DNA from: Pachyseris speciosa
Lineage: Eukaryota; Cnidaria; Anthozoa; Scleractinia; Pachyseridae
Direction: 5' to 3'
Length of the DNA stretch: 64,000 nt
Assembly: GCA_016490735.1 (NCBI GenBank)
Contig: JAEMWC010000552.1
Coordinates: 422,501 to 486,500, forward strand
The notes beneath the pieces are model-generated. The model was not told the DNA's origin. It saw only the letters and a list, made by a program, of their open reading frames with translations, and ran no database searches. Of the stretch, positions 1 to 42,542 are shown in pieces; positions within the stretch are counted from its first letter, which is position 1; each line of letters begins with the position of its first letter. A program made the position numbers and the translations under genes.

Positions 1-223
1 CACCACCTGTTGCAACGCTTGTGGCGAGACCTCCAGTTGCAAAGATGATGGACAAGGAATTCCCCAGTAATTTCCATTTTTTGAACCGTTTAACCGCCTG
101 TTTATGAGCCCAACACTTTCTGTGATATGTGTGGTAATAGGCTTTTAATTCATTAATGTGATCTTCTGTTAATTCACCTGAAATATGGTTCCAGCTGAAT
201 ATGCTTTTACGACTCTTTGTCAT
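1..223 (-). CDS. Partial membrane-protein-like gene of the viral element, cut by the window edge
   Basis: An open frame enters on the minus strand and is still open at position 1, so the C-terminus is missing. I place the start at 223 because it sits in a TATATG context like other genes here; an in-frame ATG at 232 directly follows the stop of the upstream gene. The visible 74 residues are basic and aromatic at first (MTKSRKSIFSW), then a helix rich in Tyr, His, Lys and Arg, then a hydrophobic Gly/Ala/Ser/Ile stretch that looks like the start of a membrane or hairpin segment. I do not recognise the family. Its place beside the fiber genes suggests a virion or membrane role, which is inference only. 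Confidence 0.5.
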   Translation of the reverse strand, partial: MTKSRKSIFSWNHISGELTEDHINELKAYYHTYHRKCWAHKQAVKRFKKWKLLGNSLSIIFATGGLATSVATGG

Positions 224-232
224 ATATATCAT

Positions 233-658: not shown

Positions 659-1674
659 ATATTATATCGTTGCATTAAAACGTGGTGATGATCTAAAATT
701 GTTTTTTCGTCTAATATAGAATCCAAGTAAACACAGAAAAAAATAATACAACCGTCTAAAGGTGCGATGGAATTTGGATTTAAATCACCAAAAGTCATTT
801 GTTGACTACCGGTTCTATTAGCAGATGTAAAACTTCCCAAATGTTTTTTGTTCCAATAGATTTTGCTTTTTTCTGTTTTTGGAGAAGATAAATTATCCCA
901 ATGAACAGATAAACAATGCCAAACATTAATTTGACCCAAATCATTTACTGACTAATCTGCTATTTTTCTGAAACTTTGTATAGAAGATGCTGGACCAAAA
1001 TAAACACAATTTGATTCATCAACACCACTTATAGCTAAATTTGAACCATTGTAATAGCTGACAAACTTATCATAACCTCCATTATCATGACCAAAAAGCC
1101 CATTTTTCCATGGATTTCCACCTGTATTTGAATTTAATTTATAAACAATGAAGACATTAACAACATCATTATTTAAATTGATTTGACTTATCATTCTCTG
1201 TGATCCATTAAAGTCTAAATAATAACGACCATTATGCTTATTAGCTTTGGTACAAACAGTGGGTCTTATGTTTAAAGTTGATTGTGTTGCATTATTTTCT
1301 TCATTCGAGAGATCGTACAATGTTTCAACTTTTCTGTCTGCATTCATATCTAAAAAATTATTATTCGCTCTGTCGATTTGATAAGTACATTTAGAGTATA
1401 ATCTGATGAATTCAGAAACCCATAAAACCAAAAAACTATCTCTGACAATATCTGAAACTTGTGATTTGATTACAACATGATCAGAATCATTGCCTGCTTT
1501 TACATTAGTCAAATGTTTGTTTCCAAGATCATAGTGGCCATCTTGTGTTAATGTAAAACCAATTCCTTTATCACCTTTAGGACCAATTGCACCAGCATCA
1601 CCTCTATCACCTTTTGGGCCTCTTTCACCAGTTCTTGTATTATCTTGATTTTGTGGAGAATTAAAAACTCCCAT
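655..1674 (-). pseudogene. Fiber-like protein 1: collagen-like head with LamG-like C-terminal domain, broken by one stop
   Basis: The frame starts MGVFNSPQNQD, then has Gly-X-Y collagen-like triplets at about residues 17-39, then a short linker ending in a shaft-like LTNV segment. It continues as a beta-rich domain with features of concanavalin/LamG-type folds (FIVYKLNSN, a GLFGHDNGG loop). A TAG at 952-954 interrupts it; the same frame stays open afterwards down to 655 and keeps the domain pattern (WNKKHLG, FFCVYLDSILDE). The N-terminal head is nearly the same as that of the locus starting at 5715, so the two are paralogous fibers. Known from the family: collagen-like repeats occur in trimeric viral fibers. 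Inference: an attachment fiber of the element. The stop could be decay, a sequencing error or readthrough. Confidence 0.65.
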
Positions 1675-1691
1675 TATAATATTAATTTAGA
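1675..1691 (-). promoter_or_regulatory. TCTAAA motif 17 nt upstream of fiber 1 start
   Basis: On the minus strand TCTAAA begins 17 nt before the ATG at 1674, followed by an AT-only spacer. It is one base off the 16-nt spacing seen at six other genes of the element. Confidence 0.4.
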
Positions 1692-1835
1692 TTAATTCAT
1701 GACCACTTCAAGTGTGAATGTTGTATCAAATGCACCTGTATTAGGATGTGAATAATCAATGATTAAATAGCCTCTCGATAATGATTTGTTGATGTTGACC
1801 GTTGTGATGTCTCTACTTAAAGAAGATTGTCTGTG

Positions 1836-4148: not shown

Positions 4149-4204
4149 ATTAAAAATCGACCCAGGTGATAAGGCACAACCAAAAATAATGCGATTTGCT
4201 ATGC

Positions 4205-5416
4205 CTAAAACATTTGATGATATTGTTTTAGATCCAACAGGTGTAGTTGATGAAAAACCTTCAAAAATTTCAAGGTTTGAAAATTAACACGGATTGTCCA
4301 TACATCTATTTGACCATATTTCCCCCCTGGAACAGTCAAAGTGTCATTTCCGAATCGAAACAAGTAATTTCCGTTTGTCATCAGGCGTGTGGCACTGATA
4401 AGTGGTCCATTGAATCCTAATTGGAATTGTGTTTGTTGTGGATGATACTGATTTCTCCTGATTGTTCTGACGATGAAAATTGATGTGAATGTGTTTCCTG
4501 ATGGACCAGCAATGTCAGAAATGGATTGCCATGAATCAAGTCTGTATCCGCCACTAAAGGTTCTGATAGAAAATCTGTTGTTATTCTCATCAAAAACCAA
4601 TTGGGGTTTATCACCAGAACTGATATATTTACCGCTCAAAGGGTCTGACAATCTGGTGACTCTATTTGGTGATTGCACAGTCACATTCGAAGGAGAAACA
4701 AAAAAAGAAATGTAATTACCATCAGGAATTGGCAAACTTGGGACTGAATTGTTTTTCAAATAAGTTGTTGTATTTATCTTGGCGTCAAGTTGTTTTTTAG
4801 TCACACAGTCATTATCATCAGTACCTTCTCTGACATTGATGATTTTGTTGTCATTCATGTCGATGTCAACGCCAAAAGCAACATCACCATTTTCAATCTC
4901 AAAAATAGGATCATGAATGTGTGAAAAAATGATGTTGTGATATCCATAAACACCATAAACTATCACATGATGTTTGGTATTATTTGATAAATATGGTGAG
5001 ATCAACAACATGTCTATTGATGTAGATCCTTGACTTGTTTTCTCAAGGAAGAAAATCCTCTTCATGTAACCATCAACAAGATGAGTTTTCTGGAATGCTC
5101 TTTTTATCGAATCATTTCCTTCAACCAAATTGGATGACAGATCATCATCAGCTACAGTAGAAGAATTCGGATTGTCAGTGTAATATTCAACAACAAATGT
5201 GTATTTGGAGACTTCCAATTGTGTCAGATTGAAGCGGACAACTGTTGTAAGACTGGCTGTGGGGATAACAAAAGACAATGATTTTTTGTTCAGAATGTAA
5301 GGGCTTTTATTATAGTCTTCCAATTGCAGATTGTTAGCATTTCTGATGACTGTTGTTTTAGACACATCTTCTAGAAGGAATTTGAATGGATTGACACGTG
5401 TACCCTCGATTGCCAT
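4205..5416 (-). pseudogene. Fiber 2 middle segment with shaft repeat and LamG-like domain
   Basis: A 403-codon open stretch with no convincing start of its own. It begins with a module (GTRVNPFKFLLEDVSKT ... YTFVVEYY) that recurs in the next segment, then a HDPIFEIENGDVAFG strand pair, one shaft unit (DIDMNDNKIINV) and a beta-rich domain with Phe/Asn-rich turns. It ends in a short out-of-frame tail near 4205-4280, where the downstream frame takes over. Module repetition shows internal duplication of the fiber. Confidence 0.55.
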
Positions 5417-5520
5417 GACAGCATCATCAACATACTCTTTAGTGGCTGCATCTGTAACATTAGTTGGGTCTGCTACATTACTAATTTTTTTGTTTTCAAT
5501 GTCATAATTACCATCTTGTG

Positions 5521-5715
5521 TTAATTTGAATCCATCACCTTTATCACCTTTGGACCAACAGCTCCAGTAGCTCCTTGTGGACCAATTGCACCTGTATTAC
5601 CTTTTGGACCTCTATCACCTTTTTCACCTTTGGGACCAATTGGACCAGCTGGGCCTCTTTCACCAGTTCCAGTTTTTGTTTTATCTTGATTTTGTGGAGA
5701 ATTAAAAACTCCCAT
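5521..5715 (-). pseudogene. Collagen-like head fragment of fiber 2
   Basis: A 64-residue frame starts MGVFNSPQNQDK and is followed by about 13 Gly-X-Y triplets (GERGPAGPIGPKGEKGDRG region), twice as many as in fiber 1. The frame leaves the collagen pattern near 5550 and soon stops, whereas the neighbouring frame continues with fiber-like sequence. That marks a single-base frame change. The start lies 16 nt downstream of a TCTAATCTAAT motif. Confidence 0.65.
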
Positions 5716-5731
5716 ATAATATTAGATTAGA
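5716..5731 (-). promoter_or_regulatory. TCTAAT motif 16 nt upstream of fiber 2 start
   Basis: On the minus strand TCTAATCTAAT starts exactly 16 nt before the ATG at 5715, and the start reads TATATG. This has the same geometry as five other genes of the element. Confidence 0.5.
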
Positions 5732-5754
5732 TAACACAGTGAAGTTTGATCTAT

Positions 5755-5907
5755 CTAATTACCATTGTTGTCATTGTTGTCATTGTTGCCATTGTTACCA
5801 TTGTTGTCATTGTTGCCATTGTTGCCATTGTTGCCATTGTTATTTTTTTTACCTTTTGGAGGAATCATTTCATATATATTTGGATAAGGATTGTTGAATG
5901 TTGCCAT
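5755..5907 (-). CDS. 50-aa Asn/Gly-repeat miniprotein
   Basis: A short complete frame starts MATFNNPYPNIYEMIPPKGK and continues as tandem NNG/NND tripeptides to a TAG. The ATG is in a TATATG context and has TCTAAT motifs 8 and 13 nt upstream. It lies between the ATPase and fiber 2 on the same strand. The N-terminal PYPN/IPPKGK part looks like a real short peptide with a Pro-rich motif, so the frame is probably genuine. The repeat part is a coding 9-bp microsatellite likely to vary in length. No function is recognised. Confidence 0.5.
   Translation of the reverse strand: MATFNNPYPNIYEMIPPKGKKNNNGNNGNNGNNDNNGNNGNNDNNDNNGN
5761..5842. repeat. 9-bp coding microsatellite, about nine copies
   Basis: Units of the type (A/G)(T/C)CATTGTT repeat in tandem and encode Asn-Asn-(Gly/Asp) on the minus strand. 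Confidence 0.85.
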
Positions 5908-5920
5908 ATATTAGATTAGA
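5908..5920 (-). promoter_or_regulatory. TCTAATCTAATAT leader of the Asn/Gly miniprotein
   Basis: A double TCTAAT motif directly precedes the TATATG start at 5907. The spacing is 13 nt (outer copy) and 8 nt (inner copy), so it deviates from the 16-nt rule. Confidence 0.35.
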
Positions 5921-6562
5921 TTAAACAGCACCATAAAAATTCCTTTTGATTGTTTTCATTGGTTTGTCGACATAACAGAAGGAATAAGGTTTCTTGGTTG
6001 CTTCAATGTATTTCTTCTTGTCAATTCCAAGCTCTTGGGCAATCAGATTCCTTTCTCTTGATGATGGGAAATCATACAGACAGAAATGACTGCAATTGAG
6101 CCTGATGGATTTTGGACAGCCATAGAATGATTGTCTGAGATATATGACTGAACAGTTCTTGTGTCTCCCTTGAATGAAATAGCTTATGATTTGATCTTGT
6201 TTTTTATCAGTCACAAAATCATCAAAAACAACCAATCGCTGCAAATCTGTGTCTTTTATTTGTTCAACTGGCAATATCTCTTCTTGACTGTAAACCAAGG
6301 CAGGATATCCAATGTGACTGCTTATTTCATCCATTACTTTCCGAAGATATCTGTACTTGTCTTGATCCAAGTTTTTGGCGTATAAATGTATCTGATCATA
6401 ATAGACCAATGGTTCCATAATCAAATGCATGAACAATGTTGTCTTTCCAGATCCAGAATTACCAGCCAATAACATTCTAAATGTATCTTTTGGCATATAC
6501 GGATACAACTGTCTGAATGAATTATTTGAATTCTGAATGATATCGTAATTTGGAATTTCCAT
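5921..6562 (-). CDS. A32/FtsK-HerA-like genome packaging ATPase
   Basis: A 213-aa intact frame. Walker A is GNSGSGKT at residues 34-41 and Walker B is LVVFDDF at about 110-116. Downstream is a QGRHKNCSVIYLRQSF segment with the Gln/Arg pattern expected for sensor or arginine-finger regions of this family. Polinton-type packaging ATPases are normally about 200-260 aa, so the length fits. The protein is expected to power packaging of the element's DNA into capsids. The start ATG at 6562 has TCTAAA 16 nt upstream and is transcribed divergently from the gene at 6599 across a 36-bp spacer. This is one of the few core genes with no visible break. Confidence 0.9.
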   Translation of the reverse strand: MEIPNYDIIQNSNNSFRQLYPYMPKDTFRMLLAGNSGSGKTTLFMHLIMEPLVYYDQIHLYAKNLDQDKYRYLRKVMDEISSHIGYPALVYSQEEILPVEQIKDTDLQRLVVFDDFVTDKKQDQIISYFIQGRHKNCSVIYLRQSFYGCPKSIRLNCSHFCLYDFPSSRERNLIAQELGIDKKKYIEATKKPYSFCYVDKPMKTIKRNFYGAV

Positions 6563-6578
6563 ATGTTAATAGTTTAGA
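6563..6578 (-). promoter_or_regulatory. TCTAAA motif 16 nt upstream of the ATPase start
   Basis: The minus-strand motif occupies plus positions 6573-6578, exactly 16 nt before the ATG. Together with the plus-strand motif at 6583-6588 it forms a small palindrome (TTTAGA-TTAG-TCTAAC), so the 36-bp intergenic region is a compact divergent promoter candidate. Confidence 0.5.
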
Positions 6579-6582
6579 TTAG

Positions 6583-6598
6583 TCTAACACAATTGTAT
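6583..6598 (+). promoter_or_regulatory. TCTAAC motif 16 nt upstream of the 6599 gene
   Basis: TCTAACACAAT begins 16 nt before the TATATG start at 6599. The string TCTAACACAAT occurs again, at the same spacing, before the capsid gene at 8521. Confidence 0.5.
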
Positions 6599-6877
6599 AT
6601 GGATATAGAACGAATGAAAAGGCTTATAAAAAGTGGAATTGAAGCCGGAAACAAAACAAGAGAAGTTCGTGATGTTATCAAGACTTATGAATACAGAAAA
6701 CAGGATGCATATGATACAACATCAGAATTACTGAAACCCTCTATTGATGTACAGAAGAGTGTGAAAGAAAGTGTTGACAAAAAACAGGATGAAGTCATTG
6801 AACAGTTGAAAAAGAATCAAAAAGCCTTGACATCCGGTTTTGAAGATCTTATGCTATTAAACACGTTACCTGAATAA
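6599..6877 (+). CDS. Small coiled-coil protein of the virion gene block, unknown
   Basis: A 92-aa intact frame. I use the ATG at 6599 (TATATG context, motif 16 nt upstream) rather than a TTG two codons earlier. The protein is highly charged with Lys/Glu/Asp heptads (SVKESVDKKQDEVIEQLKK), predicting a long amphipathic helix or coiled coil, and ends in a hydrophobic LLNTLPE. It is the first gene of the plus-strand virion cluster, six bases before the next gene. I do not recognise the family. A scaffold or minor virion role is inference from position only. Confidence 0.65.
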   Translation: MDIERMKRLIKSGIEAGNKTREVRDVIKTYEYRKQDAYDTTSELLKPSIDVQKSVKESVDKKQDEVIEQLKKNQKALTSGFEDLMLLNTLPE

Positions 6878-6883
6878 TTACCT

Positions 6884-7438
6884 ATGAAAACAACATTACC
6901 AATTGATTACAAACCTAAAATGATGACTGAAACAGAACCAAAGTATAAGTCAAATCTTGATAAAGGTTTTTCACTTGAGGATATTCAAACATTGATGAAA
7001 CATAATTTAGCTCCTCCATCACAGATATTTGAATCATATATTGATGGAACAATCGATATTAATAAGTATAACAGAAATATTGGTGAAATAACCAAAGATA
7101 TTGGAAGACAAAAAGCTCATCTATCAACAACCAAAACAAATAGGGATAAAAATAAAGAGATCAAATTATTGCAAAAGTACCGAAAAAGAATTGGCGCCGT
7201 TGAGGAAGGTGCACAAACTGTTGGTTCAGGCATGGGAAGAAGAGGTGCAATGGGTTCAAGGGATGCATTTTTGGGCGACATGCTTTCAAGACTGCAGTTA
7301 CTTGGTGGGTCTATTTCAGCCGGCAACAACAGCAAAAATGTTCAAAATGAATTCACAAAAATATTGCATACATTGAACAGACTGGGAATCCTGAAAACCG
7401 GTGAGTTGAATAAAATAATGATGAAATATCTAATGTAA
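6884..7438 (+). CDS. Unknown 184-aa protein of the virion gene block
   Basis: An intact frame from the ATG at 6884. The N-terminal half is charged and helical (FSLEDIQTLMKHNLAPP), the middle is a Lys/Arg-rich coiled-coil-like stretch (KTNRDKNKEIKLLQKYRKR), and then there is a Gly/Met/Arg loop (GSGMGRRGAMGSRDAF) and a C-terminal helical bundle. It lacks the TCTAA motif and may be co-transcribed with the preceding gene (6-nt gap). Its constant position between the ATPase and the putative penton suggests a capsid-associated protein, but no function is supported. Confidence 0.65.
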   Translation: MKTTLPIDYKPKMMTETEPKYKSNLDKGFSLEDIQTLMKHNLAPPSQIFESYIDGTIDINKYNRNIGEITKDIGRQKAHLSTTKTNRDKNKEIKLLQKYRKRIGAVEEGAQTVGSGMGRRGAMGSRDAFLGDMLSRLQLLGGSISAGNNSKNVQNEFTKILHTLNRLGILKTGELNKIMMKYLM

Positions 7439-7444
7439 AAGTAT
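7429..7444 (+). promoter_or_regulatory. TCTAAT motif 16 nt upstream of the penton-like gene
   Basis: TCTAAT at 7429 overlaps the end of the preceding coding frame and lies exactly 16 nt before the TATATG start at 7445. Confidence 0.5.
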
Positions 7445-8230
7445 ATGACAGAAATTTCATTACGATTCAACAGTAAAAACAGAGACAAAATTGGTGTTAG
7501 TAAGAGTCATGATTTTGAAAAAAGATTCAATACACCTCTTAAATTAACGAATGATTTGAAATATGAAATGGCTGTGAATGTTATCAATATGACATACAGT
7601 TGGTACAATATCAGAGATATTTTTGGGAATAATCAAATTAAATACAGCTATGACAAAGGTGCAAACTGGGAAACAATAACATTCGTTGACGGGATGTATT
7701 CATACGACGATATCAATGGTTACATTCATGAGTATATGAGAAAAAATAACCATGTACTGAATCCATCTGAAACAGACAAATCAAAATTCCTGTATGGTAT
7801 TAACATGTATTTCGTTTTGTCAACATATCGCATTTTGATTGAACTCAATGAAAATTATCGTGTGGATCTGAGAAATCTTGATTTCAGAAAACTTATCGGT
7901 TTCGATTCAAAATTAGTTTCAGCCACAGAATATGGAACAAATCTACCTGATATTACAAGAGGAGTAGATGAAATTTATATCAATTGTGATATGGTGATAG
8001 ATAGCATTGTTGATGGAAATAGCACAAATACAATCGCAGTTATACCAGTCACAGATCTCGTCAGAAGTTTACCTTTCACTTACAAACCTCGTTTTCTTTC
8101 ATGGAATCCTGTCTCAACACATACAATCAGCTCAATACGCTTTTATGTCACAGACTCTTCTAGAGCTCCAGTCGATTTAAATGGGATAGATTGGTATATT
8201 GAGTTATTCTTGAGAGGGACAGAATTATAA
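7445..8230 (+). CDS. Putative penton / minor capsid protein
   Basis: A 261-aa intact frame with an alternating hydrophobic beta-strand pattern and frequent aromatic residues (NVINMTYSWYNI, GINMYFVLSTYRILIEL, PFTYKPRFLSWNPVS). It ends in strands like those of single jelly-roll proteins (IDWYIELFLRG). The size and its position just upstream of the major capsid gene match Polinton penton proteins, which cap capsid vertices. The assignment rests on length, predicted fold and synteny rather than a diagnostic motif. No breaks are seen. Confidence 0.6.
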   Translation: MTEISLRFNSKNRDKIGVSKSHDFEKRFNTPLKLTNDLKYEMAVNVINMTYSWYNIRDIFGNNQIKYSYDKGANWETITFVDGMYSYDDINGYIHEYMRKNNHVLNPSETDKSKFLYGINMYFVLSTYRILIELNENYRVDLRNLDFRKLIGFDSKLVSATEYGTNLPDITRGVDEIYINCDMVIDSIVDGNSTNTIAVIPVTDLVRSLPFTYKPRFLSWNPVSTHTISSIRFYVTDSSRAPVDLNGIDWYIELFLRGTEL

Positions 8231-8243
8231 AACCTAATAGTAT

Positions 8244-8498
8244 ATGAAACGGTTTGAGTTTAAAAAATATGAACAACATGGTGAAGGTGTCATGACTGAT
8301 ATGATCAAAACAGCTGGAAAAAAAGAAGCTGAAAAAGCAGCCACAACAATTGGTGAACATGCTGGCAAAAAAGCTGGTGACAAAATCATAGAACTTTTGA
8401 AAAAGAGAAAAAGTGGAAACAAGAGTGGAACTGAGAGTGTGAGCCAGACTGGTGGTTTAATCAAAAGAAAGAGAGGTCGACCACGTAAAATCAAATAA
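8244..8498 (+). CDS. Small basic AT-hook protein, core-protein-like
   Basis: An 84-aa frame, about a third Lys/Arg, with an Ala/Lys/Glu amphipathic helix (KKEAEKAATTIGEHAGKKAG) and a C-terminal AT-hook (KRKRGRPRKIK). AT-hooks bind the minor groove of AT-rich DNA. Small basic DNA-binding proteins in this position resemble the core proteins that condense genomes in adenovirus-like virions. The start at 8244 has the TATATG context but only a CCTAAT box 11 nt upstream. Condensation of packaged DNA is an inference; binding to host chromatin is the alternative. Confidence 0.6.
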   Translation: MKRFEFKKYEQHGEGVMTDMIKTAGKKEAEKAATTIGEHAGKKAGDKIIELLKKRKSGNKSGTESVSQTGGLIKRKRGRPRKIK

Positions 8499-8504
8499 CT
8501 TTTA

Positions 8505-8520
8505 TCTAACACAATAATAT
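8505..8520 (+). promoter_or_regulatory. TCTAAC motif 16 nt upstream of the major capsid gene
   Basis: TCTAACACAATAATAT directly precedes ATG at 8521. The first 11 bases are identical to those before the gene at 6599. Confidence 0.55.
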
Positions 8521-9809
8521 ATGTCAAACTATCGTGACTCAAAATATATCGAAAGATATGAAGATGTAGTGTTCGAACTAGAGACAGCACTTAATACTGT
8601 AGTAGCAAACAATGCTCATCAGAGGAAAACAGGTTACCGTTTCGTTGTTGATAACAGTGGAGAGACTACACCATTTGACTGGTATAATGCCCGTTTCAAT
8701 GTTATTTTCATTGTAAAAAAGCTTGCAGATGGAGACCACATCATGCTGCAGATCGAAATGGTATTGTTAATTCAGTTCACGCTCTTATAAACACTCTTAA
8801 TGTAAAAATGAATGGTATTGATGTTTATGAGTGCAGAGATGCCAACCAAGCCACAAATATAAAGTCTTTGCTTGAGTATTCACAGGGTTATGCTGTAAGT
8901 CAGGGGACCAATGAGTTCTTCTATCTTGACGACAACAGAGAAGCTGAAAACAGAGTTGCTCAGGTGGCTACTTATAACAAAGGTTTCGCAGCTCGCAAAG
9001 CACTGTTGAATGGTGCAGATGGTGAAGTAAATGCAGAGATAGCATTGAACAGATACGGTTTTTTCAAGAGCTTTTGGGATGAACTCATGCCTAACTCAAA
9101 AGTAGAGGTGAACCCAACACTTGAGAGTGATGACAATTTGATTTGGCAAGCTACTGATGCATGTCGTGTGGTACTTACAAAATTCCAGCTAATTGTTCCT
9201 CGCATTGTTTTCAATTCTGCGGGAAAGTCTTTATACATGAGCAAGTATCTTGACAACAGAAAGTGGACTTACATGAGAGAAATGGTTGAGAGAGGCAATT
9301 CAACAAAACAACAGACTGCCAATTTCCGTATTTCCACAGGAATAAACAAACCCAGGCATGTCTTTGTATTCATCATCAATGATGCAAGTGATGCATCTCA
9401 GACAGCCAATAAATTTCTCTATAACACTTTTGCTGTTGGTAATGACAAAACTTTGACTGATTGTTATCTTGAAGTTGGCAATGGAAATGATTATCCAGAG
9501 GTTCATTATAAACCATCAACAGAACCAACAAGAGTATTTAGAGATGTTTTGAAATATGTTCAAGCTGTAAATGATTTCAGTGAAAGTACCCTTCTTAACA
9601 GGGGCAACTTCGGTAAAATATTCCCTTTCATTTATTTTGATTTGACGAAACAGAAACAGGATATCAAAGATGAAATGACAAAACTGACTTTCAAATACAC
9701 TTTAAGTGCTACAGCAGATCATGATTATAGTGTGTATGCATTGGTACTCTATGAGCAGGATATTGAGATGAGAAAGACTGATGGAAAGTTGATTCCGAGA
9801 TCTATGTAA
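8521..9809 (+). pseudogene. Major capsid protein (double jelly-roll), one frameshift
   Basis: The gene occupies two frames: 8521-8790 and 8808-9809. The first ends in a short nonsense tail near 8735-8790, and the second is open from about 8760 onward, so one base was lost or gained there. Together they span about 430 codons, a little below typical Polinton capsid lengths. The sequence shows the expected beta-rich, Asn/Asp-loop-rich double jelly-roll pattern, with segments such as GFFKSFWDELMPNSKV, KFQLIVPRIVFN and a C-terminal YSVYALVLYEQD. It would form the trimeric capsomers. Flanking penton, ATPase and protease genes support the call. Capsid function of this copy is doubtful unless the indel is an assembly error. 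Confidence 0.8.
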
Positions 9810-9920
9810 ATGGAATAATTAATTGGAAATAATTAATTAAATTAAATGAATTAAATAAATTAAATAATTAAATTAAATGATTGTTTGTATTAAATACAAT
9901 TTAGTATAAACATATATTAT
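9810..9920. other. AT-only intergenic spacer with ATTAAAT repeats
   Basis: This 111-bp gap between the capsid gene and the next gene is almost entirely A and T, with repeated AATTAAAT-type words and no TCTAA box. It could be a termination or promoter region. Confidence 0.5.
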
Positions 9921-10997
9921 ATGACTACTTATCATCCTCATGGAGTGAAACTTTCACAGGGTCAGAAACAAAAGCTAGCAAAAGCTTATGCAACAAATTC
10001 GCCTGTAACAATCAGGTTGACACATAGTGAATTGTCTGGAAATGATCAACTAATGTTGACTAAGACACAAATCAACAAACTGATGAAATCAAGAAGATCA
10101 GGAAAAGGTTCAGACATCAAAATATCAAAATCACAAATCAGAAAAGCTGTTGTAGAAGGAGGTTCTCTTTGGTCCAGTCTTTTTTCACTTGGAACAAGAC
10201 TATTGCCTTATGCAGGTAAAGCAGTAGCTAAAGCGGCTTCAGCATTGGCTACAGGTGCTCTTTCTTCATTAGCAAGTCTCGGTGTTGATAAACTATTTGG
10301 GAAGAAACAAAGTGGAGGATTTCTTATTCCTAATGCCAATTTATCCCAATTATTGAATGTAGGAAATTTATTGAATACGAGACAGGTGGCAGATATTATT
10401 CAAAAAATGCAGTATGGTGGAGACGTTGTTATCAAACCAACAAAAGCGCAGACTGGAAAGGGTATTGGAACAATACTGGCGAGTATTGGAATTCCTTTGG
10501 CTATAGAAGCAATCAGAAAATTAACTGGAAAAGGTTTGCATGTTGAAAGCAGCCGTCCAAGACGGTCATTAGATGTTCACGTTCCAGATCATATTATGAA
10601 AAAAAGAGGTGGGAAACATGCTATGATTCCATGGCAATCCCCTCCTGTTTTTGGTACATGGGATAACCCAATAGGCATGGGAATGAAAAAAAAAAAGAAA
10701 AACCAAAGGAAAAGGACTTCTACTGGGCAAAAACAGTCCATTCAATTCAATCCCCATACTAGGAACCATTTTGTAAACAAACCCTTATCCAACTTTGATT
10801 TAATCAATTGGGTTAAACAACTTGGAATAAAACATTTTAGAGGAGTATTTTCAAGAGACAATCTGCCGACGAGGAGACAAATCAAAAACAATGAATGTGG
10901 AATAGTCAATCTTGACAGTAAGATTGGACCTGGCACTCACTGGGTTTGTTATCGCAATGGGATAAATACTGTGAATACTTCGACTCATTTGGTTTAA
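9921..10997 (+). CDS. pX-like virion protein frame running into the protease frame
   Basis: A 358-aa frame. The N-terminus (LSQGQKQKLAKAYATNSPV, a LTHSELSGNDQLMLTKTQ motif and a GGSLWSSL strand) followed by hydrophobic Ala/Leu/Gly helices is typical of the pX- or pVI-like amphipathic virion proteins of adintoviruses and Polintons. These bind DNA or perturb membranes during entry. Gly-Gly sites such as YGGD and RGGKH could be cleavage points. An A11 run at 10686-10696 shifts the frame. After it, a different frame holds what looks like the normal C-terminal tail and stop, while this frame enters the downstream protease and shows its GTHWVCY histidine motif at residues 338-344. The fusion is therefore probably a slippage artefact or decay, not a designed polyprotein. 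Confidence 0.7.
   Translation: MTTYHPHGVKLSQGQKQKLAKAYATNSPVTIRLTHSELSGNDQLMLTKTQINKLMKSRRSGKGSDIKISKSQIRKAVVEGGSLWSSLFSLGTRLLPYAGKAVAKAASALATGALSSLASLGVDKLFGKKQSGGFLIPNANLSQLLNVGNLLNTRQVADIIQKMQYGGDVVIKPTKAQTGKGIGTILASIGIPLAIEAIRKLTGKGLHVESSRPRRSLDVHVPDHIMKKRGGKHAMIPWQSPPVFGTWDNPIGMGMKKKKKNQRKRTSTGQKQSIQFNPHTRNHFVNKPLSNFDLINWVKQLGIKHFRGVFSRDNLPTRRQIKNNECGIVNLDSKIGPGTHWVCYRNGINTVNTSTHLV
10686..10696 (+). repeat. A11 homopolymer at the pX-like/protease frame switch
   Basis: Eleven consecutive A bases inside coding sequence, where the reading frame leaves the pX-like tail. It is a hot spot for slippage or base-calling error. Confidence 0.9.
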
Positions 10998-11230
10998 TGA
11001 TGCCAACAGAAGTTCAAATATATATGTTGACAAGTGGGAAACAACTTGAATACTCTGGTGATGAGATACAAGAAAGGGATTCAGTATTGTGTGGATATTG
11101 GTGTTTATACTATCTTCTCGAGAGACAAAAAGGCAGATCGATTCTGAACACAATACATAATGCTGATTTTGATCCAACAGACACAAGTGTCAATCACAGG
11201 TTTATCATAAATTATTTCAAGAATATCTAA
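10760..11230 (+). pseudogene. Adenain-like cysteine protease, frameshifted
   Basis: The first half lies in the frame ending at 10997 (NFDLINWVKQLGIKHFRGVF, NNECGIVNLD, then the catalytic His in GTHWVCY). The second half lies in the frame from about 10958 to 11230 (acidic YFDSFG, and a Cys in LCGYWCLYYL). His, Asp and Cys in this order match the adenovirus maturation protease (C5 family) found in Polintons. One base change near 10955-10960 separates the His from the Asp/Cys half, so this copy as read cannot make the full active site. No convincing start ATG is seen upstream. The enzyme normally cleaves capsid and pX-like precursors. At about 160 codons it is slightly short, consistent with an unclear N-terminus. 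Confidence 0.8.
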
Positions 11231-11241
11231 CCTATTGGTAT
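11226..11241 (+). promoter_or_regulatory. TCTAAC motif 16 nt upstream of the zinc-ribbon gene
   Basis: TCTAAC at 11226 overlaps the protease stop codon and lies 16 nt before the TATATG start at 11242. Confidence 0.5.
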
Positions 11242-11397
11242 ATGAAGTCTTATTGTGTGAAACAGAAGAAAGTCACTGAATGTGTACCAGGAAGTGAAAG
11301 ATATCAGAAGACTAAAAATGGTCGAACTGTGATGAAATGTACTTGTGCTGAGTGTGGAATAACAAAGACTAAATTTGTCAGAAATCGGGGAAACTAA
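11242..11397 (+). CDS. 51-aa zinc-ribbon protein, DUF5679-like
   Basis: A short intact frame with Cys at positions 5, 14, 33, 35 and 38 (MKSYCVKQ ... MKCTCAECG), followed by a basic KTKFVRNRG tail. The TKNGR-x-M-KCxCAxCGxxKTKFV pattern matches the small DUF5679-type proteins found in adenovirus-like elements. The first zinc pair has YCVKQ instead of the more usual YCVKC, so one ligand may be missing. The spacing of the TCTAAC motif and the TATATG start support it as a real gene despite its size. Function is unknown; nucleic-acid binding is a guess. Confidence 0.65.
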   Translation: MKSYCVKQKKVTECVPGSERYQKTKNGRTVMKCTCAECGITKTKFVRNRGN

Positions 11398-11500
11398 TTA
11401 GCCCGTCTGAAGGGGCGGGCATACTTGATTCGGCTGCAGATATGGCGCTAACAGGATTCTTGGAACATGGAGTCCCTTATTTAGCGAAGAAGGTGTAGAA

Positions 11501-12079
11501 ATGGGAAGATATTATGCATCAGAAGCAATGAGAAATCCAAAGCTGCAAAAGAAATTAATTGACAAAGGACTTTCCCTCGCAAAGCCTGCAATCACAAAGG
11601 TTGGGTCAGAAGCTTTAAAACAACTCTCAACAAAAGTGAGACCAAATATTCGTTACAAAACAGATATCAAAGGATTAGATTATGGCGGTGTTATTGACAT
11701 TCATAAGGTTATTGGCAAGCTTCCTAAACCAAAAAGTGGATGGACACCCGGAAAGTATAAATACATGGGACCTTATAATCCCCTCGATAAACAGTTAGAG
11801 TATGATAAAAACACAGATGAGGTCACAAAATGGTATGTCCAACCTTACAACAAGGTAGATGAAATAGCAGCATATCACGATATATGTTATGATATGGGAA
11901 AAAATAAAGGCGATTGTGATAGAACAATGGTCGAGTCACTAGATCAAATACCATATGGTGAGATGCCAAAATGGGGTCAAACAGCTAGATTCTTAATTGA
12001 CAAAAAACAGAAACTTGGTCTTGGTGTTTCAAAAAACGGAAAAAGCCGTCGAGTGATGAAAACTGGCAAGAAAAACTAG
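11501..12079 (+). CDS. Phospholipase A2-like protein (parvovirus VP1u-type domain)
   Basis: A 192-aa frame. A basic N-terminal helix is followed by a Ca-binding-loop-like YMGPYNPLDK and the catalytic His-Asp segment AAYHDICYDMGKNKGDCDR, the arrangement of the PLA2 domain of parvovirus VP1-unique regions, used there to breach endosomal membranes. The C-terminus is Lys/Arg-rich. A plausible N-terminal extension lies in another frame from about 11395 to 11487 (ALTGFLEHGVPYLAKK) and joins near 11480 through a one-base change, so the annotated ATG is probably internal. PLA2-like genes are recurrent in animal Polintons. The overlap with the upstream part of the integrase frame suggests tight packing. 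Confidence 0.75.
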   Translation: MGRYYASEAMRNPKLQKKLIDKGLSLAKPAITKVGSEALKQLSTKVRPNIRYKTDIKGLDYGGVIDIHKVIGKLPKPKSGWTPGKYKYMGPYNPLDKQLEYDKNTDEVTKWYVQPYNKVDEIAAYHDICYDMGKNKGDCDRTMVESLDQIPYGEMPKWGQTARFLIDKKQKLGLGVSKNGKSRRVMKTGKKN

Positions 12080-12126
12080 CTGATGAATTACATGCACCCA
12101 TAAAACGAAATTTCACTCGGCGGCGT

Positions 12127-12996
12127 GTGATTGTAAATAACATTGATGAAATATGGGCAAGTGATCTAGTTGAAATGCAACAGTTCAGTAAATGGAATAA
12201 AGGTTATCGATATCTTCTTATGGTTATTGATGTCTTCAGCAAATATGGTTGGATTGTCCCATTGAAGGATAAGAAAGGTGAATCTGTCACTGAAGCATTC
12301 AAAACAATATTCAAGGAAGGCAGAAAACCACAGTATTTATGGGTCGACAAGGGAAAAGAGTTTTACAACAAACACTTGAAGGACTTGCTAGAGAAACATA
12401 GTGTACAGATGTACTCAACTGAGAATGAAGAGAAGTCATCAGTAGTTGAAAGATGGAATAGGACAATGAAGTCCAAAATGTGGAAGCAGTTCACTGTTCA
12501 AGGTAATACACAGTATTTAGACATGTTACCAAAATTAGTGAAACAGTATAATAATACCAAACATTCAAGCACAAAGATGACACCCGTTGAAGCATCTGAT
12601 AAGAGGAATGAAGGAACTGTTTACTTCAATTTGTATGGTGATATGAAAACATTAAAACAGAAACCGAAATTCAAAATAGGTGACAAGGTCCGAATATCTA
12701 AGTATAAACGGAATGTGTTCGACAAGGGCTATACACCAAATTGGACTGAAGAAGTGTTTACAGTTGATAAAATCCAATATACAAACCCAATAACATACAA
12801 ACTAAAAGATCTCAACGATGAAGATATTGAAGGGAGTTTTTATGAAGCTGAATTATTGAAAGCCAGACAGGATGTATTCCGTATCGATAAAGTCATTCGC
12901 AGAGACTATAAGAAAAAACAAGCTTTGGTGAAGTGGAAGGGTTACAGTGACGAATTTAACAGTTGGATACCGTTCAAGGATTTAAAAGACATATGA
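12127..12996 (+). CDS. DDE integrase (rve) with C-terminal chromodomain
   Basis: Retrovirus-type integrase core: first Asp in IWASDLVEMQ (residue 13 from the GTG used here), second Asp in LWVDKGKEF (74) and Glu in SVVERWNRTMK (109), a D-x34-E spacing. The frame is open upstream through about 12065, overlapping the PLA2 gene end, with no ATG; the true N-terminus is upstream or the start has been lost. Residues about 250-289 form a chromodomain (ALVKWKGYSDEFNSWIP), which in chromointegrases guides insertion to modified histones. The protein would integrate the element DNA and make 5-6 bp target duplications. No internal break is seen, so this is one of the best-preserved genes. Confidence 0.9.
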   Translation: MIVNNIDEIWASDLVEMQQFSKWNKGYRYLLMVIDVFSKYGWIVPLKDKKGESVTEAFKTIFKEGRKPQYLWVDKGKEFYNKHLKDLLEKHSVQMYSTENEEKSSVVERWNRTMKSKMWKQFTVQGNTQYLDMLPKLVKQYNNTKHSSTKMTPVEASDKRNEGTVYFNLYGDMKTLKQKPKFKIGDKVRISKYKRNVFDKGYTPNWTEEVFTVDKIQYTNPITYKLKDLNDEDIEGSFYEAELLKARQDVFRIDKVIRRDYKKKQALVKWKGYSDEFNSWIPFKDLKDI

Positions 12997-13069
12997 AATT
13001 GTTTTAAAGAGAAAATTATCTAACATATATGTGAAGGAGACCTACAGTATATCTGTTATTTGCTCATGG

Positions 13070-13096
13070 TAGCCAAGAATATTATTGTTCCTGGCT
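13070..13096. other. Small stem-loop between the integrase and BRO genes
   Basis: TAGCCAAGAA and TTCCTGGCTA pair with one mismatch around a 7-nt loop, followed by TTTAAAA. It lies in the 159-bp spacer and could be a 3-prime processing or termination structure. Confidence 0.35.
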
Positions 13097-13155
13097 ATTT
13101 AAAACACAGGTCGAAAATTAATTAAAAATAAAAAATAAATTACTATAATATACAA

Positions 13156-13993
13156 ATGCAAAAATATTCCTACAATAATAAAGAATTGGATGTATCAATA
13201 GATTGTTATCTTGATGACAACAATGAGATTTGGTTCAGAGGTAGAGACATAGCTTCTATTCTTGACTATAAAAATCCACAAAGCAATCAAGGATCATGTT
13301 TTATCTGATGATAGAATCTTAAGAGACCACAAAATCAGCATAAATTCACGATGGAACAAAACGTTACCTCGTGCTGAGGCCACTGATTCACGATGTAACA
13401 AAACGTTACCTCGTGCTGAGACCACTGAAAAAACTTTCAAATGTTTTTTTATAAATGAATCAGGATTTTATTCACTAATACTGTCCTCTAAAAAACAAGA
13501 AGCTGTAAAATTCAAACATTGGGTTACATCTAAAGTGTTGCCATCAATCAGAAAACAGGGGTATTACAATCAGTTCAATGACAGAAGCAATAATATGCTG
13601 ATGACTGAAAGTGAAGATGATCTGCACTACAAGATTGTGTCATTCATCAGAAAGAAATATGAAGGTGCATTAATGGTGGCGGGATTAGGTGAAAATCAAA
13701 TAAGCTCAAACATGCGAATCAGAAGTTATAAGAAAGGATATATGGCTGGACAGTGTGATTTAATGCTGATGAATCCCACAAGAAAACACAGTGCTCTTTG
13801 TCTTGAATTCAAAAGCCCAACAGGTGTGTATAAAGTGTCAGACAAACAGTCTGATATGAAGCTAATGTATGAGAAAAACAACTGCAAATACATCATGAGC
13901 AATAGTTTCGAAGACTTGATTCATGAAATAACTAAACACATGGAAGAGAGCAAATTATACTTATCAAGAAGAGAAAGATATTTAAAAAAATAA
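13156..13993 (+). pseudogene. BRO-N domain fused to a VRR-NUC-like nuclease domain, frameshifted
   Basis: The N-terminal part reads in the frame 13156-13308 (IDCYLDDNNEIWFRGRDIASI, the opening of BRO-N DNA-binding domains). The frame switches near 13275-13280 to 13262-13993, which holds the rest of BRO-N (FFINESGFYSLIL ... FKHWVTSKVLPSIRKQGYY). A 42-bp tandem duplication at 13344-13427 lies inside it. The C-terminal half (AGQCDLMLMN, LCLEFKSPTG, SDKQSDMK) has the Asp, Glu-x-Lys pattern of the PD-(D/E)XK/VRR-NUC nuclease fold. BRO-N proteins are common in large DNA viruses. A BRO-N plus nuclease fusion suggests a site-directed nuclease or a repair or resolution factor; this is inferred. Confidence 0.7.
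13344..13427 (+). repeat. 42-bp tandem duplication inside the BRO gene
   Basis: Two adjacent copies start ATTCACGAT at 13344 and 13386. They are in frame (14 codons each) and differ at a few bases, one of them changing Trp to Cys. Confidence 0.85.
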
Positions 13994-14011
13994 TTTATAT
14001 AACTATATATT

Positions 14012-14209
14012 ATGGAGAATCAAAATGTTAAGAGAGGTCGGGGAAGGCCTAGAGTTCTCAGTGATGAGGAAAGAAAAAAACACAAGACTACCTATATGCT
14101 AAATAAAGAATGGTACTGTAACATATGTAAGACAGGACGTAACTACACAATGGCAGGGAAATCTTGTCATATTAAAACAAAAAAACATCAACAAAATATT
14201 CTTCAATAA
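14012..14209 (+). CDS. AT-hook plus zinc-finger miniprotein
   Basis: A 65-aa intact frame: AT-hook-like RGRGRPRVLSDEERK at residues 8-22, then one C2H2/U1-type finger (WYCNICKTGRNYTMAGKSCHIKTKKH) at about 34-59. The start is ATTATGG, without the TCTAA box. It lies between the BRO and polymerase genes, in the presumed early half of the element. It likely binds DNA or RNA; a transcription or replication factor role is plausible but unproven. The family of small AKH- or C2H2-type proteins in cnidarian Polintons fits. Confidence 0.65.
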   Translation: MENQNVKRGRGRPRVLSDEERKKHKTTYMLNKEWYCNICKTGRNYTMAGKSCHIKTKKHQQNILQ

Positions 14210-14313
14210 TTACAATTCAAAAGGATCCAGTAATTGGATCAATTGAATTCTCAACCATATTTAAACGCAGACGGAAATGTTTTAAAGAAATAATAACTAT
14301 AGATAAATTATAA

Positions 14314-14784
14314 ATGGAAAAAATTATCGAAACTAGTAGTAATATGGACAAGAAAAGTCTCAAAAAATTGAGCAAATCTAAGCTAATCGAGTTGTTGTTG
14401 AAGCAACAGAAAAAGCCTAAAGTTATTATAGTTGATGACACAAAACCTGTGCCTAAACCAAGAACAAGACCAATTACTGCCCCAAGGACGAAAAGACCAA
14501 CTGTGAAAGAATTGGTTGATTACTTCGAAAGAAAAAGATTACCAGCACCACCAAAAGAATGGTTGGAAGAAATAGAACAATTGAAAAAGAGACCGATCCC
14601 AGCCCCCAGAACCAAACAGGTGATTCAGAAACCAACGCCTGCACCAAGGACTAAGATTGTACAAACAGAGAAAGCTTTGAAAGGTTTCACTGAGCCTTTT
14701 GAAATCAGTATAAAAAATAACAAAGACCCGCTTGCGCAACTGCAAAACACAAGAAAGGCTGTTGCATATAATATTATAAAATAA
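14314..14784 (+). pseudogene. Pro/Arg-repeat N-terminal region of the polymerase locus
   Basis: A 156-codon frame in phase with the polymerase frame beyond two TAA codons. It contains four PxP-(K/A)-PRTK-type repeats (KPVPKPRTRP, ITAPRTKRP, PIPAPRTK, PTPAPRTK) between helical Lys-rich parts, and a conserved-looking end (FEISIKNNKDPLAQLQNTRKA). Because its phase equals that of the polymerase, I treat it as the N-terminal extension rather than a separate gene. The basic PRTK repeats might bind DNA, SH3-like partners or act as a terminal-protein domain; none of this is proven. Confidence 0.6.
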
Positions 14785-17700
14785 TAAAATATTATAAAAT
14801 TCGTTGAAACGCTAAAGGTAACATTTTTGAAAATGACTGATGGACAATTAGAGTTTAAAACAGCATATTTCAACAGTGCAGCTCAAACAATTGTGAATAA
14901 TCTGGAAGTAACTGAATCACTGCAGTTGTCAAAAGACCAAATAATGAATAAGATTGCAGTTTGGGTATCTGAAGGTTCAGGTTGGACAATTGAATCTGTT
15001 GACAGCCATTACCTCAATGTTGTGAAATATGCGCCAATGAGAGGCTCCTCATACATAAAACTACCAAATGAACTTAGAAACAGTGCGAAGGGTTTAATTA
15101 ACTTGAAAAATGAGGATAATAAATGCTTCCGATGGTGCCACATCAGACACCTGAACCCACAAGAGAAATACCCACAGAGGGTTAAAAAATCAGACAAGCA
15201 ATACATTGAAAAATTGGATTATACAGGGATTGAATTTCCAGTGACTACCAAACATTACAATAAGATTGAAAGACAAAATGAGATCAACATCAATGTTTTT
15301 GGTTATGAGAATAGACAGCCATATCCAATATATGTATCAAAAGAGAAATATGCAGACTGCTTGAATCTGCTTCTAATAACTGAAAATGAAAACAAGCATT
15401 ATGTGCTAATCAAAGATTTCAATAAGTTCATGTACAATCAAACAAAGCACAAAGAAAGAAAACAGTTTTGTATGCACTGTCTTCAATGCTTCAGCTCTGA
15501 AAGGGTGTTGAATGATCACAAGGACAACTGCATGCAAGTAAATGGCACACAGGCAATAAAAATGCCAAACAAAGATAACAACATACTGAAATTCAACAAC
15601 TTTCATAAACAACAGCAGGTACCATTTGTGATCTATGCTGATTTTGAGGCCATCACTGAAAAAATACACGGTTGCCAACCCAACAGTGATAAATCATATA
15701 CAGAGGCTTATCAGAAGCATACTGACTGTGGCTACGGCTATAAAGTGGTTTGTTGTTATGATGATAAATACAGCAAACCAGCAGCAATATACAGGGGTGA
15801 AAAGGCTGTGTACAAATTTATGGAAGCTATGCTGGAGGAGGTCAAATATTGCAAGAATGTTGTGAAAAAAAATTTTAACAAACCATTGAAAATGACTGAG
15901 GATGATGAAAAAGAATTCCAAATAGCTGAAATGTGTCACATCTGTGATAAGAAGTTTACTGAAAAGGATATTAGAGTCTGAGATCATTGTCACATTACTG
16001 GTAAATACAGAGGTTCTGCTCACCAAGATTGTAATCTGAAACTCAGAGTGAACCCAGAAGAAATAAAGATACCAGTCATATTTCACAATCTAAGAGGCTA
16101 TGATAGTCATTTTATTATGCAGGAGATTGGAGCCATTGTTAAGAAGCACACTTACAAAAACAAGAAAGGTGAAGACTGTCAAATGAACATCAATGCTATC
16201 CCAAATAACATGGAGAAGTATATGGCTTTCATGCTTGGCAATCACCTAACATTTCTTGATAGTTTCCAGTTCATGAGCTCCAGTTTGGAAAAACTTGTAG
16301 GCAATCTACCTAAAGAAGCCTTGAAATACACCTCACAAGAGTTCAAGGGAAATGATCTTAATCTGGTGGCGCAAAAAGGTGTTTATCCATACGACTTCAT
16401 GGACAGCTTTGATCAATTCAATCAGAAACTGCCCTCAAAAGAAGAATTCTATAGCATACTGAGTGATACGCATATATCAGATGAAGACTATACGCATGCT
16501 CAGACTGTTTGGAAAGCATTCTCTTTGAAAAACATGGGTGATTATCATGATCTGTACCTTAAAACAGGTGTACTCCTACTGGCTGATGTATTTGAAAACT
16601 TCAGAAAAACATGCCTTGAGTACTATAAACTGGACCCGTGTCACTATTTCACATCTCCTGGTTTATCTTGGGATGCCATGCTTAAAATGACTGACATAAA
16701 ATTAGAATTGATGACAGACATTGATATGTTTCAATTCATTGAAAAGGGCCTACGTGGAGGAATCAGCTATATAGCCAACCGTTACGGTAAAGCAAATAAT
16801 AAATACATGAAAGAGTATGACGAGAAGGCGCCCTCGAAGTACATCATGTATCTTGATGCTAATAATTTGTATGGTTGGGCTATGAGTCAATATTTACCAA
16901 CAGGCGGATTCAGATGGATGACACAAAACAGATCAATAATTTAGACCTGGCTAAGTATGAAGAAGACAGCAACAAAGGTTTGATTCTTGAAGTTGACCTT
17001 AAATACCCCAAGAGTTACATAATCTACATAATGACTACCCACTTGGGCCGGAAAAGATTAAAGTGACTGGGGACATGCTATCAGATTATTGTAAGAAAAT
17101 AGCTAGCAAATTCAATATATCAACTGGTCTGGTACATAAACTGATACCAACATTAAGCAACAAAGAAAAATACGTGCTCCATTATAGGAACCTCCAATTA
17201 TATACTGATCTCGGTTTGAAAATAACTAAAGTCCATCGAGTGTTAGAGTTCAATCAGTCCGCGTGGCTCAGACAGTACATCGACTTCAACACTCAGAAAA
17301 GAACTGATGCAAAAAATGCCTTTGAGAAAGACTTTTTCAAGCTGATGAATAACAGTGTATTTGGAAAAACGATGGAAAACCTCAGAAAGCGAGTAGACGT
17401 CAGATTGGTGACTGACGAGAAGAAGCTATTGAAATTAGCTAGTAAACCCACTTATGTTAGCAGTAAAATCTTCAATGAAAATTTGGTAGCTGTTCATAAG
17501 ATAAAAGAAACACTTACTTTAAACCGGCCAGCATACGTGGGGATGTGTATTCTAGACCTTAGCAAGACACTGATGTACGATTTCCATTACAACTACATTA
17601 AACAAAAGTACGGTAACAAGGCCAAATTACTATTCACAGACACAGACTCACTGACCTATGAAATTGAAACCCAAGACGTCTATAGAAATTTCTGGAACGA

Positions 17701-18109
17701 TAAAGATAAATTCGATAACAGCGACTACTCTGAAAGCTCGCCGTATTTCAATAAGACTAATAAAAAAGTTATTGGTAAGATGAAAGATGAGGCTGCTGGA
17801 GTCCCAATATGTGAATTCGTAGGACTGAGATCGAAAATGTATAGCTATATGAAAGATAACCAAAATGGAGGGAAGACAGCAAAAGGTATTAGTAAGAATA
17901 TTATTAAGAATAACATCAAACATGAAAATTATAAAGAGACACTATTTGATAATAAACAGATGCATCATAGAATGAAAACAATCAGAAGTCAGAACCATCA
18001 ACTTGGAAGTTATGAGATAAATAAAGTATCACTCAGCTGCTTTGACGACAAGCGGTATATTCATGATAATGGCGTGACAAGCTATGCATATGGACATTAT
18101 GGAATCTAG
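14314..18109 (+). pseudogene. Protein-primed family B DNA polymerase, broken at several points
   Basis: The frame opens at the ATG at 14314 with a Pro/Arg-rich N-terminal region (see 14314-14784). It is cut by tandem TAA codons at 14782-14787, a TGA at 15979-15981, and frame changes near 16925 and 17005-17040. Domains in order: Cys/His finger (FCMHCLQCF, about 15470); Exo I YADFEAI (15634); a second Cys/His module (CHICDKKF ... DHCHITGKYRG) spanning the TGA; Exo II NLRGYDSHF (16088); Exo III YHDLYLKTGVLLLAD (about 16545); Pol A LDANNLYGWAMS (16852); Pol B KLMNNSVFGKTMEN (17340); Pol C FTDTDSLTYEI (17633). All exo and pol signature residues seen are present. It would replicate the linear element from a terminal protein. 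The C-terminus ends normally at 18109. The breaks are described only; function of this copy as read is lost. Confidence 0.9.
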
Positions 18110-42540: not shown

Positions 42541-42542
42541 TA

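Follow-up and report, generated by a model that had tools for sequence, protein, structure and literature searches.

A TCTAA box ahead of virion genes suggests giant-virus-type late control in Polintons of the coral Pachyseris speciosa

A conserved promoter would offer a readout of the late gene class of Polintons and of its switch, with a bearing on the expression of their capsid genes and hence on the making of particles. Here we describe a short box, TCTAA, that lies 16 nucleotides (nt) ahead of the start codons of virion genes in a Polinton of the coral Pachyseris speciosa. The stretch analysed, called the window throughout, comprises 64,000 nt of contig JAEMWC010000552.1 (positions 422,501 to 486,500, forward strand), and a decayed copy of the element fills approximately its first 18 kb. 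The box, its conservation in other copies and the VLTF3-like genes found beside Polinton genes suggest that the Polintons of this genome switch on their particle genes with a late control system of the giant-virus type.

The Polinton copy and its genes

Several frames of the copy in the window are broken, namely those of the major capsid protein (MCP), the phospholipase-A2-like (PLA2) gene, the BRO-family gene and the polymerase. Its genes and boxes are listed below, where -16 and the like give the distance in nt upstream of the ATG.

1..223, minus strand: open reading frame (ORF) cut by the left edge of the window, with a relative in another copy (see below)
952..1674, minus strand: collagen-repeat fiber-like gene 1 (Pfam Collagen, E 0.0017, 18.5 bits, under its cut-off)
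1687..1691, minus strand: box of fiber-like gene 1, 17 nt upstream of ATG 1674
5722..5731, minus strand: tandem box TCTAATCTAA of fiber-like gene 2, 16 and 11 nt upstream of ATG 5715
5911..5920, minus strand: tandem box of small gene 5907, 13 and 8 nt upstream of its ATG
5921..6562, minus strand: A32-like packaging ATPase (Pfam Pox_A32, 2.6e-16; 2135 homologues)
6563..6598, no strand: divergent spacer of 36 bp with two back-to-back boxes, between the ATPase gene and gene 6599
6574..6578, minus strand: box of the ATPase gene, -16
6583..6587, plus strand: box of gene 6599, -16
6599..7438, plus strand: gene 6599, a virion-module protein; frame interrupted in the window, its later part being ORF 6884
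7429..7433, plus strand: box of the penton gene, -16
7445..8230, plus strand: penton-type minor capsid protein (name from a preliminary description of this DNA; 467 homologues, no Pfam match)
8233..8237, plus strand: degenerate box CCTAA of gene 8244, -11
8244..8498, plus strand: gene 8244, encoding a small basic protein; tail AT-hook-like by eye; homologues in the sister family
8505..8509, plus strand: box of the MCP gene, -16
8521..9809, plus strand: MCP gene, frame broken in this copy
9921..10997, plus strand: minor virion (minor capsid) protein gene; a broken gene downstream overlaps it and resembles a protease by eye only
11226..11230, plus strand: box of the PLA2 gene, -16
11242..12079, plus strand: zinc-ribbon-like and phospholipase-A2-like virion gene, broken here (PF08398, 4.2e-8, on 11501-12076)
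12127..12996, plus strand: integrase with chromodomain (PF00665, PF00385); homology begins at a GTG, true start uncertain
13019..13031, plus strand: TCTAACATATATG, a box 137 nt upstream of the BRO gene, possibly its displaced box
13156..13993, plus strand: BRO-family gene, frame broken here (PF02498, 1.3e-12, on 13262-13990)
14012..14209, plus strand: small conserved protein with, by eye, an AT-hook (RGRGRPR) and a cluster of Cys and His residues of zinc-finger-like kind; its sole Pfam match, to C2H2, is non-significant (E 0.94)
14314..14784, plus strand: gene 14314, without box
14833..18109, plus strand: family B DNA polymerase (polB), broken here (PF03175, 3e-14, on 16048-16941), without box

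The Polinton gene set thus meets in one element: an rve integrase (PF00665), a family B polymerase (PF03175), an A32-like ATPase (PF04665) and capsid genes. The MCP is identified through its homologue matches; full-length MCP frames occur elsewhere in the genome (loci L151-L153). No long inverted pair that could represent terminal inverted repeats was found in window positions 1-20000, and the left end of the element seems to lie outside the window. Fiber-like gene 1 begins with MGVFNSPQNQD, resembling the start of fiber-like gene 2, and the initial methionine of the ATPase is almost invariant among 26 aligned homologues. ORF 6884 was discarded as a gene start of its own, its ATG being present in just 10 of the 26 starts found and the frame of gene 6599 continuing through it in copies that include L151, L155 and L179. 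ATG 11242, one of the boxed starts listed in the preliminary description, is the zinc-ribbon-like start (by eye) of the PLA2-domain gene and does not belong to a small gene of its own.

A box at a fixed distance from virion start codons

Fifteen start codons of the window were compared, and TCTAA stands exactly 16 nt ahead of six of them: 5715 (minus), 6562 (minus), 6599, 7445, 8521 and 11242. It is found 17 nt before the ATG at 1674 (minus) and 13 and 8 nt before that at 5907 (minus). All the offsets put forward in the preliminary description (six at 16 nt, 1674 at 17 and 5907 at 13) were reproduced by direct count, as was its remark that most of these starts read TATATG, which is the case for six of the eight starts it named and for eight of the 15. 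The 15 starts are partly dependent on each other, since the fiber genes duplicate one another and a single spacer carries the boxes of both the ATPase and gene 6599. In 5000 trials with first-order Markov sets matched in composition, no set contained any 5-mer six times at one offset. Moreover, the window contains nine occurrences of the arrangement TCTAA-N11-ATG, six of them at gene starts, while 100 shuffles averaged 3.5 and one of them likewise gave nine. As a word, TCTAA is no commoner in the window than expected (158 observed, 188 expected), so that the signal is positional. The -16 position of the box is real and beyond chance.

Conservation in close copies and in a sister family

A search of the 984-Mb genome gave 3776 first-look ATPase candidates, of which 150 were scored, and this Polinton lineage is seemingly very abundant. 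At least 150 scored matches are 95-100% identical to the window ATPase. Thirty loci were cut out by ATPase similarity, L121 being the window copy, and in them TCTAA precedes at -16 all 31 ATPase starts found, 30 of the 31 starts of gene 6599 and all 28 of the penton gene. In the case of fiber-like gene 2, where paralogues are mixed, the box lies at -16 in 19 of the 28 ATG starts, at -17 in eight and only at -11 in one. The 13-nt spacing at 5907 turned out to be peculiar to the window copy, with -16 in 9 of the 10 starts found in the others. The MCP box is at -16 in all five longer close-copy stretches, the PLA2-gene box is at -17 from the ATG in all five close copies (L151-L155), and further penton copies show TCTA at -16 in 18 of 20 starts. 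In this line, 34 of the 36 columns of the spacer between the ATPase and gene 6599 are invariant in the 30 copies, compared with 29% of all columns in the aligned segment and 27-43% at the codon positions of gene 6599 beside the spacer (mean majority share 0.88-0.93), a contrast that we take as supporting evidence only, because the copies were picked by ATPase similarity and one or two badly aligned rows depress the fractions outside the spacer.

A sister family, not used for finding the motif, was reached by a search with protein P0070, to which its ATPases are 68% identical. Its identity to the window proteins is 74-77% for the ATPase (20 loci), 70-85% for the penton (16), 82-84% for a piece of the MCP (3) and 82-86% for the integrase (2). 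Of five longer stretches fetched for it, L178 and L179 belong to the window family. The count was confined to distinct upstreams of 40 bases whose ATG stands at the position expected from homology; all other rows were dropped, and no fiber starts were recognised. On this basis, TCTA was found at -16 in 12 of 13 penton upstreams, in all three of the MCP, in the three copies of the minor capsid gene and in one of the two distinct upstreams of the PLA2 gene, while gene 8244 has the full TCTAA at -16 in two of its four distinct starts. As a control, TCTA precedes the other ATGs of the sister loci at -16 in 13 of 3906 cases and at 14-17 nt in 55, and those of the window-family loci in 34 and 56 of 7247, respectively, these control ATGs including genuine starts not recognised as such. 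Pooling both families, T[CT][CT]A lies 14-17 nt ahead of the ATG in 98 of 114 distinct virion-gene upstreams. The enrichment at 14-18 nt that the preliminary description had expected of homologous elements is therefore present, both in the close copies and in the sister family. Boxes lying at -16 share the sequence WWATCTAA, followed by a pyrimidine-rich step, AAT and then TATATG on the start codon, which makes the signal bipartite, with WWATCTAA and TATATG as its two parts.

Chance, or the shared descent of duplicated starts without any function, is strongly disfavoured by these data and scarcely credible as an account of them. The fiber starts are indeed mutual duplicates, the close copies are not independent and the sister family is merely moderately diverged; against this stand the 5000 Markov sets, the sharing of one offset by different genes of one element, the retention of the box in the sister family though the proteins differ by 15-30%, and a spacer more conserved than its coding neighbours.

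A second possibility is that the motif acts on RNA, as a spliced-leader acceptor, a branch point or a translation signal: its spacing is counted from the start codon, and CTAAC resembles a branch point. On the other side, we know of no eukaryotic translation signal of such a kind. Among the 98 distinct intervals between box and ATG, 28 contain an AG and 70 do not, and in these 70 no 3' splice site is available. The spliced-leader acceptor was dropped on these grounds, and an action on RNA of any of the three kinds appears very improbable.

Evidence beyond this genome was sought in the N-termini of 360 homologous proteins (120 each of ATPase, MCP and penton; P0137, with an odd N-terminus, was left out), a few of which run into upstream DNA. 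Read in this way, the MCP P0187 and the penton P0259 fit TCTAA at exactly -16, with a chance of about 5% each, and the ATPase P0004 fits it at -18 and -10. P0187, P0259, P0004 and P0112 all have a tyrosine directly before the methionine, as TATATG demands; these four proteins are possibly from the same or a near species, and support from beyond the genome is thin. A search with P0322 gave no clear third family: its matches in the genome share 53-57% identity with it, and by eye several adjoin ATPase copies already listed. No relatives were confirmed in IMG/VR with the ATPase, the ATPase and MCP alignments or a piece of polB, and none were found among GTDB genomes with both alignments or among phage records with the ATPase; nor did the ATPase profile match any PDB sequence. 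Scanning IMG/VR for the exact pattern of the box gave at least 120 stretches and nothing beyond chance, and these loci were not used.

Genes without the box

Within 50 nt of their starts, the window genes for BRO (13156), the zinc-finger protein (14012), gene 14314 and polB (14833) have no TCTAA. In the fetched copies the box is likewise missing before polB (none of three starts, and none in L182), before the zinc-finger gene (none of five) and before gene 14314 (none of three). For the integrase, whose start is uncertain, no box was found near the GTG where homology begins, in the window or in the copies. A search by eye for a motif shared by early genes gave nothing convincing. The box had been described as absent from polymerase, BRO and zinc-finger genes, which holds for the first and the last; the BRO gene departs from it, with TCTA ahead of all three starts found in the sister family and a box at -16 in one of six starts (L155) of the window family. 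Since the BRO gene is mixed and polB, the zinc-finger gene and gene 14314 are box-free, the class that carries the box comprises the virion module and, in some copies, BRO.

Regarding the BRO gene itself, a stretch of about 115 bases lies between it and the integrase (window 13019-13155; L155 7125-7262). It shows, by eye, a hairpin-like inverted repeat, and its 19-codon ORF recurs in L155. In L155 a box stands on either side of this stretch, as though its insertion had doubled the box.

VLTF3-like genes beside Polinton genes

The genome holds at least 84 profile matches to PF04947 (Pox_VLTF3), all above the curated cut-off, obtained from the 150 candidates scored out of 1355, whereas 14 control genomes gave no match. 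Contigs shared by these matches and Polinton genes were picked out by eye, and 14 of the 84 matches lie at most 9 kb, edge to edge, from a listed ATPase or penton gene, in one orientation and on one side. In 13 of them the ATPase is on the opposite strand and the match at its 3' (fiber) side; the fourteenth (C1032) has the same layout as judged by its penton gene. For the match on C409 there is, in addition, another ATPase on the same strand at a distance of 2 kb; the match on C277, 17 kb away from a penton gene, was left uncounted. By chance, about 0.4 of the 84 matches would be expected within 8 kb of the 300 listed ATPases.

In locus L144, a stop-to-stop frame at 2504-3022, whose front part comes from a neighbouring copy, contains a stretch that matches Pox_VLTF3 narrowly (25.7 bits against a cut-off of 25; E 1.1e-5); PHROGs gave nothing convincing for this ORF (best E 0.1). 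Convergent with this frame lies an ORF that shares 90% identity, over 62 residues, with the left-edge ORF of the window (1..223, minus strand); no terminal repeats that would enclose the VLTF3-like gene were seen. Because the VLTF3-like ORF adjoins a relative of this left-edge ORF, the corresponding gene of the window copy would be placed just outside the window. A short plus-strand frame at window 2-70 was dropped as a candidate VLTF3 end, being antisense to a better ORF.

Strong VLTF3 matches, with E values from 3e-20 to 8.5e-15, are also found away from the listed Polinton genes, at C743:37301-37741, C283:899025-899333, C435:84384-84728 and C234:72449-72742; these are possibly endogenous large-virus genes or parts of other element families.

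The 14012 protein, itself box-free, is by eye a second candidate for a DNA-binding regulator of the element.

A proposed late-type promoter

The preferred explanation of these data, and in our view a probable one, is that the virion-assembly genes are driven by a bipartite late-type promoter with the box as its core, in a group of elements that appears to encode a VLTF3-like factor, by which the box is probably recognised. TATCTAA some 16 nt before the ATG and TATATG across the start codon would jointly switch on the virion genes of this Polinton lineage. Transcription probably begins at TATATG, which would give nearly leaderless mRNAs. polB, the AT-hook/zinc-finger gene and gene 14314, which lack the box, would be early genes for replication and control. 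A VLTF3-like late factor encoded by the element most likely recognises the box and brings the RNA polymerase; such an element-encoded activator is plausible because genes of the VLTF3 family stand beside Polinton genes. The polymerase itself would be host Pol II, which is proposed since no RNA polymerase gene was found among the window ORFs scanned with Pfam, no search aimed at RNA polymerase families having been made. The late-type gene class advanced in the preliminary description is borne out by capsid, penton, ATPase, fiber and PLA2 genes, together with the minor capsid gene of the sister family, all with a conserved TCTA core at a near-fixed distance in AT-rich sequence. Its further suggestion of an ancestry in a large-virus transcription system has gained support as regards kinship, through the VLTF3-like genes that adjoin Polinton genes. 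A bolder version, which we advance tentatively as possible, is that animal Polintons hold a self-contained late switch of the type found in nucleocytoplasmic large DNA viruses (NCLDV), with their own VLTF3 and the TATCTAA/TATATG promoter, probably working on host Pol II.

Several observations weigh against this interpretation. In the window family no recognisable box stands at -16 before gene 8244 (none of five distinct upstreams) or the minor gene (none of four), where the upstreams look like decayed or replaced boxes. In the sister family, TCTA lies at 14-17 nt in 17 of 19 upstreams of gene 6599, all 17 at -14, a shift from -16; only 5 of its 13 penton upstreams have the full TCTAA; and its ATPase shows strict TCTA at 14-17 nt in just 5 of 18 distinct upstreams; 17 of the 18 are reached only if the pattern is relaxed to T[CT][CT]AA, a choice made after seeing the sequences. 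The sister-family BRO boxes are 21-23 nt ahead of the start in all three cases. As for the factor, no VLTF3 was seen in the window's own copy, which the left edge cuts; the scores of the Polinton-linked matches are barely above the cut-off, and the strongest matches (C743, C283) lie away from listed Polinton genes, so that a mixture of VLTF3 sources is possible. The 14 control genomes may not be animals.

Alternatively, the Pol II machinery of the animal could itself recognise the box as a core promoter element, be it an initiator-like sequence or the site of a host factor, without any viral late factor, in which case the VLTF3-like genes would serve otherwise or belong elsewhere. The lack of a polymerase gene among the ORFs scanned agrees with this, and a near-fixed distance to the ATG suits an initiator. 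On the other hand, the box is restricted to the virion module plus BRO and missing at polB, VLTF3-like genes do adjoin Polinton genes, and a fixed -16 core combined with TATATG at the ATG is, to our knowledge, unlike known metazoan core promoters. Altogether, recognition by host machinery in this manner seems rather unlikely.

Relation to known late promoters

TCTA has been described as the late motif of Cafeteria roenbergensis virus (CroV) and as a motif of mavirus and of type-4 endogenous mavirus-like elements (EMALEs), common to ChlorV (PMC8547959, PMC5294985, PMC13196603). As in those systems, the box described here is a TCTA core in AT-rich sequence just ahead of late or late-type genes, whereas in the Polintons the core reads TATCTAA, keeps a nearly constant position at -16 and is joined by TATATG, a second conserved element that overlaps the start codon. 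Moreover, the setting differs, with Polintons of a 984-Mb genome, an rve-chromodomain integrase, BRO and neighbouring VLTF3-like genes. The core shared with CroV and type-4 EMALEs invites a virophage-like dependence of the kind proposed for mavirus and CroV. The Polinton virion genes would then be expressed by the transcription machinery of a co-infecting large virus, with the box serving as that virus's late promoter. Such a dependence is quite improbable, considering that one promoter is kept in two element families and many copies of one genome, and that VLTF3-like genes linked to the elements make a helper less needed.

A bipartite parallel is the late promoter of African swine fever virus, reported to combine TATTT (-15 to -11) with TATATA where transcription starts. 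Both have two AT-rich elements about 13-14 nt apart and a TATA-type sequence in the initiation region, but the upstream element of the Polintons is TCTAA and not TATTT, no viral RNA polymerase was found among the ORFs scanned, and the start site is a predicted one. Late promoters of poxviruses, reported to combine a TAAAT(G/A) initiator with VLTF factors, resemble the Polinton signal in having a short upstream core and an initiator, here a putative one overlapping the start codon, as well as a VLTF3-family protein; the initiator-like sequence of the Polintons is instead TATATG. Adintovirus-like elements of Amoebidium, which are related to Polintons, are reported to carry capsid genes, PolB and VLTF3; in contrast to the present elements they belong to a protist and have a Dam methyltransferase, not seen here, and the sections of that report available to us give no promoter motif for them.

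Titles and abstract openings, drawn mostly from outside subscription journals, yielded no account of a late promoter in animal Polintons. Homologues of VLTF2 and VLTF3 are stated in PMC11253617 to be undetectable outside Nucleocytoviricota, which a VLTF3-like gene inside Polintons, if true, would contradict. Such a gene would bear on Polintons as ancestors or relatives of large DNA viruses and, together with the TATCTAA/TATATG promoter, would amount to a minimal late transcription system outside Nucleocytoviricota, either ancestral or captured from a large virus. It could also explain "orphan" VLTF3 genes such as the isolated one noted in Exaiptasia pallida, in a survey which set polinton-like ATPases aside (PMC5294986).

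Other features of the window

An Rfam scan of window 1-20000 gave no match, nor did a Pfam scan of two left-end ORFs. The product of gene 8244 ends in KRGRPRK, an AT-hook-like tail (by eye) that recalls a core condensing protein. Further along the window, at 42528-45149 and 47172-47858, lie a retrotransposon remnant (PF03372 endonuclease, PF00078 reverse transcriptase) and a piece of a DDE_Tnp_4 transposase.

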